Assembly: GCA_027023305.1 (NCBI GenBank)
Contig: JALVVR010000048.1
Coordinates: 109,579 to 173,578 of the forward strand
From: Campylobacterales bacterium
GTDB taxonomy: Bacteria; Campylobacterota; Campylobacteria; Campylobacterales; QNZT01
Direction of reading: 5' to 3'
DNA length: 64,000 nucleotides
In this document: in pieces, positions 35,111-57,343 of the stretch
Numbering within the stretch: the first letter of the stretch is position 1
How the letters are laid out: the number at the start of each line of letters is the position of its first letter
Translations under genes and position numbers: made by a program
The notes under the pieces: model-generated
Databases searched by the model: none
What the model was told of the DNA's origin: nothing
Seen by the model: only the letters and a program-made list of their open reading frames with translations

Positions 35111-35371
35111 ATGTCAGCTCAAATATCAGCTTATGTATCTGATGAAACAAAAGATAGATTAGAACAGTATAGCTCTAACTATGGAGTTAAAAAAGCATAC
35201 TTGATAGAAAGTGCCATAAACCACCATCTTCAAGCACTTCATGAAATACCTGAAGAATTTATACTATCTACTAACATTAAGATAACTGACAATTCTTATC
35301 AAAAGATTCTTGACACACAAGACACTCCTTCCACTCCAACACAAGAGTTAAAAAGACTTTTAAGTGATTGA
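35111..35371 (+). CDS. ribbon-helix-helix antitoxin
   Basis: An 86-residue protein. The N-terminus SAQISAYVSDETKDRLEQYS is a ribbon-helix-helix strand and first helix, and VKKAYLIESAINHHLQAL is the second helix; the C-terminal tail (about 50-86) is Thr/Pro rich and should wrap the toxin. It overlaps the GNAT gene by 8 nt. Likely represses its own promoter through the palindrome at 35075-35098. Confidence 0.8.
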   Translation: MSAQISAYVSDETKDRLEQYSSNYGVKKAYLIESAINHHLQALHEIPEEFILSTNIKITDNSYQKILDTQDTPSTPTQELKRLLSD

Positions 35372-35882
35372 GATTAGAGCCTTAAAAAAAGATGATAATA
35401 TAAATAACTTTTCTAGTGGAAATCTCGAACTAGATTATTTTTTTCAAAGATTTGCTGGACAAAATCAGTTTCGACACTATATAGGAGTTACCTATGTAGC
35501 TTTATACAAAGATGAAATCATAGGTTTTATATCTGTAAATTCTTCATCTCTACTAAATAAAAATTTTTCTAAAAAACTACCAAACTACCCTCTTCCAGTT
35601 CTAAACTTAGCTAGACTTGCAGTAGATAAAAGATACCAAAATCAAGGAATAGGTAAAAAACTATTAAAATTTGTCCTTATGTTATCCATAGAGCAAAAAA
35701 ATAGATTTGGTTGTGTAGGCATAGTAGTAGATGCAAAAGTTGAATCTGTTGAATTTTATGAAAAATTAGGATTTTTTGAGATAGAAAGAGAGGAATTAAT
35801 AAGATATAAAAACACTACTACTATGTTTTTAGATATAAAAACTGTTGAAAAAGCTCTTCAAAAAAACTCACCACTAACATAA
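35364..35882 (+). CDS. GNAT-family toxin (TacT/AtaT-like acetyltransferase)
   Basis: A 172-residue GNAT acetyltransferase with the acetyl-CoA loop VDKRYQNQGIGKKLL and C-terminal SVEFYEKLGF. Pairing with an RHH antitoxin marks it as the toxin of a type II module; such toxins acetylate the amino group of charged tRNAs. The start is a GTG at 35364 that overlaps the antitoxin stop by 8 nt. The 3' end overlaps the convergent YchJ gene by 25 nt. Confidence 0.82.
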   Translation: MIEIRALKKDDNINNFSSGNLELDYFFQRFAGQNQFRHYIGVTYVALYKDEIIGFISVNSSSLLNKNFSKKLPNYPLPVLNLARLAVDKRYQNQGIGKKLLKFVLMLSIEQKNRFGCVGIVVDAKVESVEFYEKLGFFEIEREELIRYKNTTTMFLDIKTVEKALQKNSPLT

Positions 35883-36568: not shown

Positions 36569-37627
36569 ATGTTAAGATTTTCAACATCTACAAAAGATGA
36601 CATGAGTTTAGATGAACTTAGAGTTGCTCTTAAAACTTACAAAACAGCCAAACAAAAAGATGAAAAATTTATAGTAAGACTAGAAGATGAAAATCCTGAG
36701 ATAGTTGAGTTTTTAAATCTTTTTGGTATCACTGCTGATGAGATCACTTATCAAACTCACAACCTAAAGTTTCATCAACAACTAGCAACAAAACTTTTGA
36801 TGGATAAAAAGGCTTTTAATTGCTTTTGTAAAGATAAAGAGTTAAAAAGTGGCTATCCCGAAACTTGTAAAAATCTCCCAGACTCTTATGTGATAGAAAA
36901 TGAAAGTCCATTTTCCGTACGAATAAAAAAGCCAGAAAATCAAAAAGAGATAGATGACTTCATAATCTTAAAAATAAACAAATACCCAACAAATGACTTT
37001 GCACTAGCAATAGATGATATGCTTAGTAACACAGACCAAGTTTTCACAAATGAGAAAAACAAAATAAATACTAAAAAGCAATCTCACATAAGAGAGTCTT
37101 TAGGGTATGATAAAAAGATAGAGTATATCTTCCTGCCATCCTTGCAAGATGCTCCAACTGCAAACTCACTTTTAGAGCAAGGATTTTTACCTGAAGCGAT
37201 AGCTGAGTATCTTAAAGAAGATGAAGATACATTTGATCTTACAAAACTTCAAACTATCAATCAAACTCATATCCCAAACCTAGACTCACTTAAACTTGCC
37301 TCCCTAGTTGGATTTAAAAGTAAAGATATAGGAGAGTTAGCTAAGCTGTACTCAAAAGAAGTTAGCACAATAACCCAGATAAAAGATAATATAGATAAAA
37401 TATTTTCACAAAAAATAGATGATGGATTAGAAGATATCAAAAGAGTTGTAAAAGATGCTCCACACTTTGAAAGTTATGCTGAGTTTGAAAAATATATCCA
37501 GCAAAAAATCAAAGACAATGAGCTTTCACAAAAGCTAACATTACTTTTAACAGGAGCTAATGAAAAAGCAAATCTGTCCGATATCTATCCATACATAAAA
37601 AACTATATCAAGGAGATAGCAAGATGA
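36569..37627 (+). CDS. degenerate glutamyl-tRNA synthetase homologue
   Basis: A 352-residue class I GluRS/GlnRS-like protein that lacks both class signatures. The N-terminus keeps MLRFSTSTKDDM and FIVRLEDEN in place of RFAPSPTG and FILRIEDTD, but the HIGH motif reads SLDEL, and the KLSKRxG region before LEQGFLPEAIAEYL reads QDAPTAN. It is about 80-110 residues shorter than active enzymes. The anticodon-binding part (about 240-352) seems kept. It heads the gltX-yggT-slt trio found in Campylobacter, so it holds the position of a normal gltX. An active copy must exist elsewhere. Overlaps yggT by 4 nt. Confidence 0.85.
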   Translation: MLRFSTSTKDDMSLDELRVALKTYKTAKQKDEKFIVRLEDENPEIVEFLNLFGITADEITYQTHNLKFHQQLATKLLMDKKAFNCFCKDKELKSGYPETCKNLPDSYVIENESPFSVRIKKPENQKEIDDFIILKINKYPTNDFALAIDDMLSNTDQVFTNEKNKINTKKQSHIRESLGYDKKIEYIFLPSLQDAPTANSLLEQGFLPEAIAEYLKEDEDTFDLTKLQTINQTHIPNLDSLKLASLVGFKSKDIGELAKLYSKEVSTITQIKDNIDKIFSQKIDDGLEDIKRVVKDAPHFESYAEFEKYIQQKIKDNELSQKLTLLLTGANEKANLSDIYPYIKNYIKEIAR

Positions 37628-37887
37628 TACTTATAGAAGCACTTTTAGGAACAGTTATATCAGTAATAAGCATATACATTTGGGTGGTAATCATAGCAGC
37701 CCTAATCACTTGGGTAAACCCAGACCCATCAAACCCAATAGTTCAAATCCTAAACAGATTAACAGACCCAGTTTATAGAAAAATGAGACAATTTTTCCCA
37801 ACAGTTATCGGAGGAATAGATGTTGCACCTATCATTCTTATCCTAGCATTACAGTTTTTACAACAACTACTTATAAGAATCATCTAA
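37624..37887 (+). CDS. YggT-family membrane protein
   Basis: An 87-residue protein with two hydrophobic helices (about 5-28 and 64-86) linked by the conserved WVNPDPSNPIVQILNRLTDP YRKMR region typical of YggT. Family members are linked to cell division and osmotic stress resistance. The ATG overlaps the gltX-like stop by 4 nt, and slt follows 1 nt later. Membrane location is certain from the sequence; function is not. Confidence 0.9.
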   Translation: MILIEALLGTVISVISIYIWVVIIAALITWVNPDPSNPIVQILNRLTDPVYRKMRQFFPTVIGGIDVAPIILILALQFLQQLLIRII

Positions 37888-37888
37888 C

Positions 37889-39352
37889 TTGCTAAAAACT
37901 CTAACTCTACTTATCCTATGGACAAGTTTTCTCTTTTCCGTGGGATTTAGTACCCTTGCCTCAAAGCCCGAAAGTATAGAAAAAGATTTTTACATCTATC
38001 TATATCTAAAAAATCATAACCTTTCAAAAAAAGATGCCCGTAAGCTTTTTAAAAATGTAAAGCACTTAAACAAAAAGCTAAAAGATGAGTTTGTAAAATA
38101 TGGCATACAAAAAACTAAAAGCAAATCAAGCTATCAAAAACCTAGCTTTTGCTATGATATAAATGAGTTTATAAAACAACCACCACATGAGTTTTTAAAA
38201 GTATTTTCTCATCTTTCAACTTGGCATATACAAAAGTATCTAAACTCTAATATCCCAAAATCATATATGCAAAGACTAGCCCAAGATAGAGGTTTTAATA
38301 CATTTGCAAAAAAAGTATTATCCTCAAATGCTATAAACCTAAGAAACTCTATCATAGGTATAAAATCCCCATATGCTAAAGCAGAAGCCTCCTTCTATCT
38401 TGCTATGTTTAACCTAAATAATAAAATCCTAACCACTTTTTACCTAAAACAAGCAAAAAGAAATGCACTGAGTCAGTTTAAAAAAGATCGTGCAACTCTT
38501 TGGTTATACTTAGTTACAAAAGATAAAAACTACTTAAAAAAGCTAACATATTCGCCAGAGTTAAATATCTACTCACTATATGCCTATGAAAACCTACAAA
38601 AAACTTTTAACAACTTAGTTACCTCGTTTAATTCAAAAAAGAAAAACCCTCACTTTAAAGTACAAAATCCTCTCTCTTGGGCTAATATAAGAGCTAAAAC
38701 TTACAAAAAGCTACACCATTTAACATACAAACAAAAGATAAATTATCTTTTTAAAAGATTTCAAACAAAAGAGAGTGAACCACATCTATCATACTTTTTA
38801 AAAGATATAAAACCAAATAACTACTTTTTGTTTTATCATGATGAGTATCTTAAAAATTACTCAAAAAAAAGAGAAGCTCTAATCCTTGCTATCGCTAGAC
38901 AAGAAAGTGAGTTTATCCCTACTGCTATATCTCCATCTTTTGCTTTGGGATTGATGCAGTTTATGCCTTTTTTAGTAGATCATACAGCAAAAAAACTAGG
39001 ATACAACAACTTTCAATACAAAGATATCTTCAATCCAAAAGTAGCTTATGAGTTTGCAAATGACCACTTAAACTTTTTGGAAAAACATCTCTATAATCCT
39101 CTTTTAGTTGCTTATGCTTACAACGGAGGGATAGGCTACACAAGAAGAAATATCCTCCAAAAAAACTACTTTAAACTAAACTCTTACGAGCCCTTTTACT
39201 CCCTAGAGATGATAACTCCAAGAGAAACTATGCACTATGCAAAAAAAGTACTAGCAAACTATGTAGTTTACTGCAACCTTTTAGGAATCCCTATAACAGT
39301 AACCGAGCTTTTAGAAAAACTAAAAGATATTGATAATAATCATAGCTTTTAA
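37889..39352 (+). CDS. slt: soluble lytic murein transglycosylase (Slt-like)
   Basis: A 487-residue periplasmic enzyme that cleaves the glycan strands of peptidoglycan, forming 1,6-anhydro-MurNAc. A signal peptide (1-18) precedes a superhelical region (about 20-330) and the SLT domain (about 340-480), with the catalytic Glu in ARQESEFIP, then ALGLMQFMP and AYNGGIGYT. The start is a TTG at 37889, 1 nt after the yggT stop. Shorter than E. coli Slt70 (645 residues) in the helical part. Confidence 0.92.
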   Translation: MLKTLTLLILWTSFLFSVGFSTLASKPESIEKDFYIYLYLKNHNLSKKDARKLFKNVKHLNKKLKDEFVKYGIQKTKSKSSYQKPSFCYDINEFIKQPPHEFLKVFSHLSTWHIQKYLNSNIPKSYMQRLAQDRGFNTFAKKVLSSNAINLRNSIIGIKSPYAKAEASFYLAMFNLNNKILTTFYLKQAKRNALSQFKKDRATLWLYLVTKDKNYLKKLTYSPELNIYSLYAYENLQKTFNNLVTSFNSKKKNPHFKVQNPLSWANIRAKTYKKLHHLTYKQKINYLFKRFQTKESEPHLSYFLKDIKPNNYFLFYHDEYLKNYSKKREALILAIARQESEFIPTAISPSFALGLMQFMPFLVDHTAKKLGYNNFQYKDIFNPKVAYEFANDHLNFLEKHLYNPLLVAYAYNGGIGYTRRNILQKNYFKLNSYEPFYSLEMITPRETMHYAKKVLANYVVYCNLLGIPITVTELLEKLKDIDNNHSF

Positions 39353-53612: not shown

Positions 53613-55742
53613 ATGAATTTAAAACAATACTATAATGAATTTGATAATAAATTTAATAATTTAAAATTTATAGATAAAAAGTTTTATGAAAATATGGGCA
53701 TTGTTGCATTTAATTCAAAAGCTAAGGTAAAAGATTCACAAAATAGATATAGTGAAGAATATATTAGAGCAAGATTTGTTTATGCACTTATTCATAGTGG
53801 TCTTTATCCAAAAGAATATATTTGTATAGAATTTGGTTTTCCCAAAGGTAATACAAAAACAAAATTAAAACCTGACATAGTAATATTTAAAAATAAGGAG
53901 TGGCAAAAAGATTTTAAAGAAGCTGTGTCTAATAAAAATTTTTCAAAAATTAGACAAAATATTTTAGTTATTTTTGAAACAAAAAAAAATAATAAATCAA
54001 TAGAAAATGCTATTGAAAATCAACTTCGTTCTGCCATGAATGAGAATGAATCAAAAGATAAAATATTTGGTATTTATTTTGATGATGAAGATGATATCTT
54101 AATATTTAAAAAGTTTGGTAATTCACCTATTAGAAGATTTAATGAAAATTTAGAAAGAAGTAGTGGTGGTATAACAAATTTAAATTTTGATAAGAGAGAT
54201 CTTTTAAATGAAATTCCATCATTTGAAGATTTTAAAAATAACAATGAAAGCATTTCAAATCTTGAAAAATTAACAATAGATTCTCTTGAAGCAATAGATG
54301 AAACAAATTTTGAAAAATTTATGTCTGTATTGAGTAAAGATGCTGATAGGATAAGACCAAAACATGAGGAAAGAGATTTAATTGTAGAGTTTTTAACATT
54401 AAAAGTATTTGATGAAAAACGAAGTAAAAGAGATAAAACAAATTTGTTATTTTATATTAAATCAAGTGAAATAAAAAAAGATGGTCTGGCAGAGCTTAGT
54501 TTTAGACAACGAATAATAAATCTTTATAAAGATGCTAAGAAAGAATATAAAACAATTCTTTCTAAACCATATTTTACTTATGATAAAAGTTTTAGACCTA
54601 GTGATGCAAACGAAGAAAGATTTTTAATAGCATTAGTGGAAAATTTTCAAAAACGAGCTATCCTAAAATCAAAAAATGAAAGTTTTAATCAGATTATTTT
54701 TAATAATTTTGGAAGTGAAAAACAAAAAGCAGATAAAGGACAATTTTTCACTCCTATTCCAGTTGTAAAAACAATTATTAAAATATTAAATCCAATTAAA
54801 AATGAAGAGCTGTGTGATCCTTGCTGTGGTATAGCAGATTTCCCAACTATGGCATTTAGACATTCATATAGAGATAAGGTTGATGATTTTCCAAATGCAA
54901 GTCATTATTATGGCTTTGATCTTGAACCCAATAATTTAAAATTAGCAGAACTAAATCTTGTACTAAATGGGGATGGTGGTGCTACACTTAAACAAATGGA
55001 TTCTTTATTTCAAAAAATGCTTATTTCTGGTGAAGTAAATAATATAGGAGAGTTTACAGATAAATTCTATGATACAAACTGGTTTCACAAAGATGATAGT
55101 GATAAAGATTTAAGAAAATTTAAAATAATAGCAACTAATCCTCCATTTGGTAAAGGTCGGGATTTATTAATAACTAAATCTAATAAATCAACAATAAACC
55201 TATATGAAACATATCATGAAAAACTTGAACTTGATACAAGGGGTAATAAGAAATTACCAAATAGTATGGATATGGGAGTTTTATTTTTAGAAAATAGCTA
55301 TAAATTGCTTGAAGCTGGTGGTAGGATGGGTATTGTTCTTTCCAACTCAATTGCAAGTATAAAAGAATGGGAAAGAGTTAGACTCTGGTTACTAGATAAG
55401 ATGAGGATTGTGGCATTATTTGATTTACCAGCAAATACATTTGGTGAGACAGGTGTTTCCACAACTGTAATAATTGCTTATAAACCAAAAGAAAATGAAC
55501 AACATTTATTAAATAATAATTATGAAATATTTATAAAAGAAATACAAAATCTCGGTTATAAAGTACATGAAAAACAAAGAATAGTTCAATTTAAACCACA
55601 ATTTATAATCAATGAAGAAACTTTTGAATTTACAAGTGACTTAAATGAAGATTTTACGGCTATGATAAAAGATTTTAAACAATATCTTCAAAGACAGGAA
55701 GAAGAAATAAAAGATGCTTTTCATTTAAAGGAGTTTGAATAA
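53613..55742 (+). CDS. BcgI-like restriction-modification protein (nuclease plus N6-adenine methyltransferase)
   Basis: A 709-residue protein joining two activities. The N-terminal domain (about 40-180) carries a PD-(D/E)xK nuclease: D88 in KLKPDIVIF and E122-x-K124 in IFETKKN. The methyltransferase (about 330-640) has KGQFFTP (375-381), the SAM loop LCDPCCGIADF (motif I, 402-406) and NPPFG (509-513), the class gamma N6-adenine type. A specificity gene follows with a 1-nt overlap, and no separate hsdR is present, so the layout matches BcgI-type systems that cut and methylate with one protein. Leucine codons and base composition are more AT-rich than its neighbours, suggesting recent acquisition. 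Confidence 0.85.
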   Translation: MNLKQYYNEFDNKFNNLKFIDKKFYENMGIVAFNSKAKVKDSQNRYSEEYIRARFVYALIHSGLYPKEYICIEFGFPKGNTKTKLKPDIVIFKNKEWQKDFKEAVSNKNFSKIRQNILVIFETKKNNKSIENAIENQLRSAMNENESKDKIFGIYFDDEDDILIFKKFGNSPIRRFNENLERSSGGITNLNFDKRDLLNEIPSFEDFKNNNESISNLEKLTIDSLEAIDETNFEKFMSVLSKDADRIRPKHEERDLIVEFLTLKVFDEKRSKRDKTNLLFYIKSSEIKKDGLAELSFRQRIINLYKDAKKEYKTILSKPYFTYDKSFRPSDANEERFLIALVENFQKRAILKSKNESFNQIIFNNFGSEKQKADKGQFFTPIPVVKTIIKILNPIKNEELCDPCCGIADFPTMAFRHSYRDKVDDFPNASHYYGFDLEPNNLKLAELNLVLNGDGGATLKQMDSLFQKMLISGEVNNIGEFTDKFYDTNWFHKDDSDKDLRKFKIIATNPPFGKGRDLLITKSNKSTINLYETYHEKLELDTRGNKKLPNSMDMGVLFLENSYKLLEAGGRMGIVLSNSIASIKEWERVRLWLLDKMRIVALFDLPANTFGETGVSTTVIIAYKPKENEQHLLNNNYEIFIKEIQNLGYKVHEKQRIVQFKPQFIINEETFEFTSDLNEDFTAMIKDFKQYLQRQEEEIKDAFHLKEFE

Positions 55743-57343
55743 TGAAAAGTTATATATCTAAAAATTTATTGATTAATAAAAAAGATATATTAAATAAAAA
55801 ATCTTTTCTTCCTAAAGATTATAGAATGATTGAATCAAACAATAGTAATTTTTATACAATTAATCAATATATTATAGAAGAAAAAGTAGGTGAACAAATA
55901 AATGTAGAAAATTATCTAACTTTTAATAGTGATTTTAAATTAATCACTATATCTAATATGGAGAATTTATTATTAGATTTTTCAAAAGGTGAATGGATTC
56001 CTCCAAAATTATATAAAAAATCATCAAAAAAAATCCGAAAAGGTGAATTTTTAATTAGTAGAAATGCTTCATTGGGAAAAATATCTTTTGTAAATAAAAA
56101 ATGCAATGCAATACTAAATGGTGGAATATCCAAACTACTTATAGATGATAAAAAAAAGTGGTATATCTTTGCCTTTTTTATTTCTAATTATGGAAAAGAT
56201 TACTTATCCCTATTAACTTCTGGTGGCGGTACACAACAAAATGCAAAAAGACAAAATCTTCTTGATGTTAAAATTCCTTTTCCAACTAGTTATAATCATG
56301 ATAATCCAAATGATATTGAGTTATTGGTATCTTTAATTACCCAAAATATAATTGATAAAGAAGAACAAATTAATTTTAAAAGAGAACAAATAGATAATTT
56401 TATAGAAAATGAATTGAAAAATCATCAAAAATCAAACTCTCAACAATATAGTTATCCAAAATTAAATTTATTAAAAAAAGAAATTAGACTTGATACAGGA
56501 TTATATGAAAAAGAATACCAACTAAATAATAATTTAATAACAAATTATATAAATGGGTATTTTAATATACCAATAGAAAAATTTAAAAGTGGATCTACTC
56601 CAAAAATAAGAATATTTAATGGTGGTAAACTTAATTACAATTGGGTTACACCTACAGATATTAAAGATTTTGGTTTTTACACTCCTATTGAAAAAATATC
56701 TATGCCAACAATCTATAATTTAACACAGGATGCTATTTTATTTATAAACAGAACTTCAAAAGGAAAAAAAGGTGAATATGTTGGGATATCTTGTTTTTAC
56801 GATTATAGTTACTATAGCAAGGGACACCATAACCAAGGTATATATAGAGTTGAGGATTTTTCAAAACTAGAGAAGTTATTTATAACAACTTTTATGAATA
56901 GTAAAATAGTGAGAAAAATTTGTGGAAGAGTATCAATCGGTTCAAAAATGAAAGAGATGAAATCTTATGATTTTTCTAAATTAAATTTTCCAAATTTTCC
57001 AATAAATAAACAAAAAAAAGTAGTAAAACATTATTACAATTATATAGATAACTTAAATGATATTACATTTGATAATTACTTAGATAAAAATAAAAAGCGA
57101 AATAATAAATTAGGTGTGTATCAGCTCTCTATTGAAATATTTACTTTGAAGAAAAAATTGGAAATAATAATTGATAAAATAATATTAAATAGTAAAATAA
57201 ATATAGAAGAGTATTTATTAGACAACAATACCTACCACCAAACAGGTAAACCTGTCGGTGAAGTCAATCATTATCTAGGATCTATAACAAACTTAAAACC
57301 AGCATATGCTTTACTATCTAGTTTAAAATCTCCACTTTTATAG
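55742..57343 (+). CDS. restriction-modification specificity (S) subunit
   Basis: A 533-residue HsdS-like protein that recognises the target site for the preceding protein. Two target recognition domains can be traced, each ending with a conserved KIRKGEFLISRNASLGK-type or NRTSKGKKGEYVGIS-type segment and a helical spacer (about 195-225 and 440-480). The start shares one base with the RM stop (TAATG). The last 73 nt lie antisense to the YfaZ-like gene, so the final 24 residues (GSITNLKPAYALLSS) are not typical of S subunits. High Asn and Lys content fits the AT-rich origin. Confidence 0.8.
   Translation: MKSYISKNLLINKKDILNKKSFLPKDYRMIESNNSNFYTINQYIIEEKVGEQINVENYLTFNSDFKLITISNMENLLLDFSKGEWIPPKLYKKSSKKIRKGEFLISRNASLGKISFVNKKCNAILNGGISKLLIDDKKKWYIFAFFISNYGKDYLSLLTSGGGTQQNAKRQNLLDVKIPFPTSYNHDNPNDIELLVSLITQNIIDKEEQINFKREQIDNFIENELKNHQKSNSQQYSYPKLNLLKKEIRLDTGLYEKEYQLNNNLITNYINGYFNIPIEKFKSGSTPKIRIFNGGKLNYNWVTPTDIKDFGFYTPIEKISMPTIYNLTQDAILFINRTSKGKKGEYVGISCFYDYSYYSKGHHNQGIYRVEDFSKLEKLFITTFMNSKIVRKICGRVSIGSKMKEMKSYDFSKLNFPNFPINKQKKVVKHYYNYIDNLNDITFDNYLDKNKKRNNKLGVYQLSIEIFTLKKKLEIIIDKIILNSKINIEEYLLDNNTYHQTGKPVGEVNHYLGSITNLKPAYALLSSLKSPLL

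Follow-up and report, generated by a model that had tools for sequence, protein, structure and literature searches.

We analysed a window of 64,000 nt (the whole stretch of DNA taken from the Campylobacterales contig) in which an open reading frame related to glutamyl-tRNA synthetase (GluRS) lies next to yggT and an slt-like gene (Table 1). The frame starts with ATG and is preceded by AAGGA. The original prediction had placed it in the gltX-yggT-slt order known from Campylobacter, and the ORFs in the sequence follow this order, with gltX2 as the first gene. In the genomes compared, yggT was found immediately downstream of gltX2 at 117 of 117 loci whose gltX2 has lost its catalytic motifs (hereafter dead) and at 52 of 55 intact loci examined; yggT and gltX2 are probably in the same operon. 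Other ORFs were seen in the window as well. At 35111-35882, a small ribbon-helix-helix-like ORF overlaps a GNAT acetyltransferase-like ORF and resembles a GNAT toxin-antitoxin pair. At 53613-57343, an N-6 DNA methylase-like ORF is followed by a specificity-subunit-like ORF, in a type I restriction-modification layout.

Table 1. Coordinates of the gltX2-derived gene, of altered and kept sites within it, and of its downstream neighbours in the window.
Feature	Position	Strand	Basis
gltX2-derived gene, predicted pseudo-GluRS2, 352 aa	36569..37627	+	ORF call, PF00749, TIGR00464, alignment
Site of HIGH-type motif (HIGN in intact orthologues), now Ser-Leu-Asp-Glu, residues 13-16	36605..36616	+	alignment
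Zinc knuckle C85-x-C87 ... Y96-xxx-C100, kept	36821..36868	+	alignment
Site of RGEDHLSNT active-site motif, now TNEKNKINT, residues 160-168	37046..37072	+	alignment
Junction of KMSKR loop deletion, between Leu192 and Gln193	37142..37147	+	alignment
Site of basic KGKxxxxPLR stretch, anticodon-binding domain, here KDNELSQKLT (K396 to N, next residue E, R403 to T)	37511..37540	+	alignment
yggT; start codon overlaps gltX2 stop (ATGA)	37624..37887	+	ORF call, profile search
slt-like lytic transglycosylase (SLT domain), downstream in cluster	37889..39352	+	ORF call, profile search

The identity of the window protein was assessed by profile search and alignment. PF00749, the GluRS catalytic domain, matched it with E=5.6e-17. 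Its best matches in relatives were GluRS2 orthologues (E 8e-59 to 1e-40), and a C-terminal GluRS2 profile, which itself includes the window sequence, matched it with E 3e-46. By common descent and position at the same locus, the gene belongs to the GluRS2 orthologous group of Campylobacterales. Intact GluRS2 orthologues share with it the place upstream of yggT, the two-domain layout and the CxC...YxxxC zinc knuckle, at ~40-50% identity. Against the gltX model TIGR00464 the protein scored 95.1 bits (cut-off 289.95), which leaves it outside the active equivalog.

The predicted absence of HIGH and KMSKS, motifs expected of an active GluRS, was borne out: SLDE stands in place of HIGN, the KMSKR loop is deleted, and careful alignment brought up no intact motif. 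Compared with intact orthologues, PTYNF is changed to PTNDF (Tyr to Asn) and 10 residues are missing after 'RIED'. An alignment artefact was ruled out as the cause of motif loss, HIGN and KMSKR being at the same columns in closely aligned orthologues. Unlike intact GluRS2, the window protein has lost the HIGH, RGEDH and KMSKS signatures together with tRNA-facing basic residues, and charging would not be expected of it. GluRS2 of H. pylori charges only tRNA-Gln (PMC9976931); given the motif loss, glutamylation of tRNA-Gln by the window protein is not predicted.

The original reading had the frame and the fold residues persisting over 352 codons, and the ORF indeed proved to be real, with a full GluRS fold predicted. 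The AlphaFold2 model (62 sequences) reached a pLDDT of 92.0 and a pTM of 0.86, and its best PDB match was the T. thermophilus GluRS 1j09 (TM 0.82 by query), spanning both domains. The protein therefore combines lost catalytic residues with a fold kept by prediction, as a synthetase pseudo-enzyme does. Motif loss and the purifying selection found in dead relatives (see below) strongly support the pseudo-enzyme reading of the original prediction, the gene apparently deriving from GluRS2 of Campylobacterota, the enzyme specific for tRNA-Gln.

Campylobacterota had been said, correctly, often to carry two gltX genes, and the search for other copies yielded an intact GluRS1 elsewhere in the genome (460 aa, with HIGG and KLSKR). 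The genome (1.82 Mb, 73 contigs) encodes three PF00749 proteins: the product of the window gene, GluRS1, and a GlnRS. The last (752 aa, TIGR00440 693 bits) has HIGH, MSKR and a GatB/YqeY-like tail, and as a YqeY-tailed GlnRS it appears to be of a horizontally acquired type. It is encoded on a different contig from gltX2. In several families, the acquired GlnRS gene directly adjoins the dead gltX2, divergently in G036 (L298) and G053 (L299) and on the same strand in G040 (L300). GatB was also found in the window genome, and a profile search for AsnRS returned nothing above its cut-off; Asn-tRNA formation therefore presumably depends on GatCAB. As intact GluRS1, GlnRS and GatB are present, the Glu and Gln tRNAs of this genome should be chargeable without GluRS2.

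We surveyed 397 Campylobacterales genomes (≥85% complete) and detected GlnRS matches in 141. Among 144 GlnRS carriers examined, ~120 keep a gltX2 ORF next to yggT and ~20 are without the gene. The gltX2 of these carriers is usually a frame of 380-450 aa, nearly always motif-less and without stops. Relatives are thus not clearly decaying: internal stops were found in only one retained gene of a GlnRS carrier (G056). The gltX2 genes of G154 and G257 are truncated. Motifs were compared in aligned sequences extracted from 175 genomes, and KMSK was present in 9 of 123 retained genes from GlnRS-positive genomes versus 47 of 52 from GlnRS-negative ones (Fisher p~1e-27, uncorrected for kinship and with G241 reassigned). 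The five GlnRS-negative genomes with a broken GluRS2 (G011, G014, G016, G017, and G127) are drafts, 57-96% complete, and GlnRS was likely overlooked in most of them. The dead form occurs in Sulfurimonas indica NW8N, Malaciobacter halophilus DSM 18005 and many Sulfurimonas metagenome genomes; the intact form occurs in Aliarcobacter vitoriensis, Arcobacter vandammei, and A. cryaerophilus.

Individual genomes called for separate treatment. G241, an Arcobacteraceae-type draft, was rejected as a GlnRS-positive genome with intact GluRS2. Its GlnRS is open only if TAA/TAG are read as Gln, and the contig carrying it (G241:C171:7988-9214, L297) looks like a ciliate contaminant. In G058, a 96% complete genome in which GlnRS was not found, gltX2 is interrupted by a TAG stop or a frameshift (G058:C1:1540345-1541633), which may be genuine or a sequencing error. 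GatB was present in 75 of 80 GlnRS-positive genomes, with gltX2 kept or lost alike. Dependence on GatCAB was therefore rejected as uninformative about gltX2 retention, and GatCAB gains no support as a partner.

Judged from these motifs, GluRS2 usually looks dead where GlnRS is present. This opposes a suggestion by Dasgupta and Basu 2014 (PMC3927822). That paper gives both GluRS2 and GlnRS for 6 of 10 epsilon-proteobacteria and suggests that these GlnRS may be non-functional, GluRS2 being always present; its passages on these enzymes mention no loss of GluRS2 motifs, and KMSKS is absent from its text. It was the only relevant paper returned by an open-access literature search for inactive GluRS2 alongside GlnRS.

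The history of the dead form was estimated from a tree of 134 GluRS2 proteins with the motif columns removed. The tree follows families, and gltX2 has therefore mostly been inherited vertically; within families, dead copies stand among intact ones. There were 26 changes on the tree between dead and intact and 21 in GlnRS presence. Counted over phylogenetically independent pairs, GluRS2 death coincides with GlnRS in 8-13 cases (about 11) and runs against it in 0 (median p 0.0005), G241 still being counted as GlnRS-positive if sampled. A single origin of all dead copies was rejected (delta lnL 1786, p-AU 2.8e-5). The number of independent origins is approximate, because this is a quick tree with weak forks and long branches, that of the window gene included. 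GluRS2 thus appears to have died repeatedly and independently in relatives of Campylobacter that use sulfur and hydrogen, once they had acquired GlnRS. The likely cause, absent from the original prediction, is that a horizontally acquired GlnRS made GluRS2 redundant, the same death recurring in many lineages. A derived string, EKNKINT, and similar deletions are common to the window protein and to a dead GluRS2 from another family, L006 of G036. A shared origin of the two is unsupported by the tree and not rejected (p-AU 0.19); convergence or transfer may lie behind the likeness.

The columns that dead proteins have lost comprise HIGN, RGEDH, the loop with KMSKR and a number of basic residues, with no replacing consensus. 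The strongest constraint falls on three C-terminal segments (321-340, 361-380, and 421-431), in which conservation among dead proteins is about equal to that among intact ones. Of 115 dead proteins, 109 retain all three zinc Cys; the DDM residues are each present in >95%. The dead proteins are more acidic in six of six families compared, also with the motifs excluded: from intact to dead, the net charge outside the motifs went from -2.2 to -8.7 in one family (f1) and from +2.5 to -8.7 in another (f20). K396 of the GK..PLR stretch, which is Lys in the listed intact orthologues from GlnRS-less genomes, has given way to Asp or Glu in ~70% of dead proteins, and the tree shows 26 changes at this residue; GluRS1 of the window genome has the equivalent stretch KLGKLAQPIR. 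Lying in the anticodon-binding domain, this stretch would contact tRNA, and the window protein seems to have lost part of its tRNA-binding surface. The K396 change or a neighbouring acidic change is already found in most of the nine GlnRS-positive genomes with intact KMSK (G209, G252, G304, G342, G353, and G373); charge reversal may sometimes precede catalytic loss.

These charges bear on the possibility that the protein, without charging, continues to bind tRNA-Gln or tRNA-Glu and serves as a tRNA chaperone, delivery factor or sensor, in the manner described for SLIMP of insects. Such a role would suit the predicted fold, which includes the anticodon-binding domain, the retention of DDM and the zinc knuckle in ~95% or more of dead genes, and the basic residues still conserved in dead proteins (K332, K347, K355, K423, R301, and R305). 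However, net charge is down in every family compared, and the GK lysine has mostly turned acidic. The charge analysis demoted this explanation from the leading place, and we consider it doubtful, though worth keeping in view. Of the regulatory or tRNA-binding role originally proposed, the tRNA-binding part is thus disfavoured by charge loss and Lys-to-Glu reversal, and a regulatory or binding role not involving tRNA is left standing.

Selection was measured across relatives, as the original prediction had proposed, and proved to be purifying. In 24 pairs of dead genes with shared lesions, dN/dS was 0.11-0.36 (NG86; upper 95% bootstrap limits ~0.5 or less), and both protein halves were constrained; intact GluRS2 pairs gave 0.03-0.16 (NG86). 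Pairs whose lesions differ (G015/G017, G012/G016, G276/G382, and G203/G283) and the nearly identical pair G096/G228 were left out of this post-death estimate. A neutral simulation with the same synonymous distances produced 0 of 400 stop-free survivors for each of 14 genes. No close relative of the window species with gltX2 was found, and the dN/dS values cover related dead genes; from these genes and the open, well-predicted frame, we infer that the window gene is under selection too. A functionless pseudogene, caught before breaking during slow loss after GlnRS arrival, would be in keeping with the ~20 GlnRS carriers without gltX2, the stops in G056 and the truncations in G154 and G257. For the dead GluRS2 family, though, decay is already contradicted by the substitution pattern between lesion-sharing genes, the outcome of the simulation, the ~120 open frames and the conserved zinc ligands and C-terminal helices, and we hold it to be improbable.

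We give as little credence to a new enzyme, in which a rebuilt active site would perform ligase-like chemistry on another substrate. R3, D40, and DDM are kept, and R3 aligns with a glutamate-binding Arg of other GluRS, but the protein has lost the ATP-binding signatures of class I, and what replaces them varies from lineage to lineage without any column reaching a new consensus. Retention only in cis, an idle protein being translated for the sake of the overlapping yggT and slt, is very hard to credit: yggT does start within ~11 nt of the gltX2 stop at nearly all dead loci, but this explanation expects a dN/dS near 1, against the 0.11-0.36 observed, and 11 of 16 gltX2-less genomes searched still encode yggT beside slt.

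On balance, we lean towards a pseudo-GluRS2 kept for a second role, independent of tRNA and ATP, after GlnRS took over charging. GluRS2 would already have had this role, which would need neither ATP nor tRNA charging and would most likely lie in binding another protein or regulating it as a subunit. The horizontally acquired GlnRS would then have made charging by GluRS2 redundant, leaving the second role alone to be kept. Selection would also have weakened tRNA binding, perhaps since an inactive protein holding tRNA-Gln would compete for it with GlnRS. Against this reading, the role would be dispensable in some lineages, as ~20 GlnRS-positive genomes are without gltX2. In its general form, that GluRS2 has a hidden function and that each arrival of GlnRS strips away charging and tRNA binding, making the same pseudo-enzyme independently more than a dozen times, the proposal strikes us as evenly poised.

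Other synthetase relatives offer partial parallels. GluQ-RS (YadB) is likewise a GluRS-derived paralogue with a zinc knuckle, but with its active site kept and no anticodon-binding domain it is the reverse of the window protein, in whose model this domain is present. The window protein scored 54.7 bits against the GluQ-RS model TIGR03838 (cut-off 276.7) and falls outside that family. HisZ, the HisRS-like regulatory subunit of HisG, is a bacterial synthetase paralogue without aminoacylation that is kept for a regulatory role, and SLIMP of insects is also a retained synthetase relative without aminoacylation; both are reviewed in PMC9437257, where GluQ-RS is the sole entry for GluRS in the table. 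HisZ differs in being class II and having a known partner, whereas pseudo-GluRS2 is class I with many independent origins. SLIMP differs in being eukaryotic, class II and reported to keep tRNA binding.

Dead synthetase paralogues have been known as single cases. In GluRS2, one natural experiment has been run over and over, in at least six families and with intermediates, which allows a direct reading of the order of losses and of the retained surface. The automatic label 'glutamate--tRNA ligase' would be wrong for these genes in many genomes. The pattern indicates that, across a large group of bacteria, selection may act on a translation enzyme for a second, separate role.
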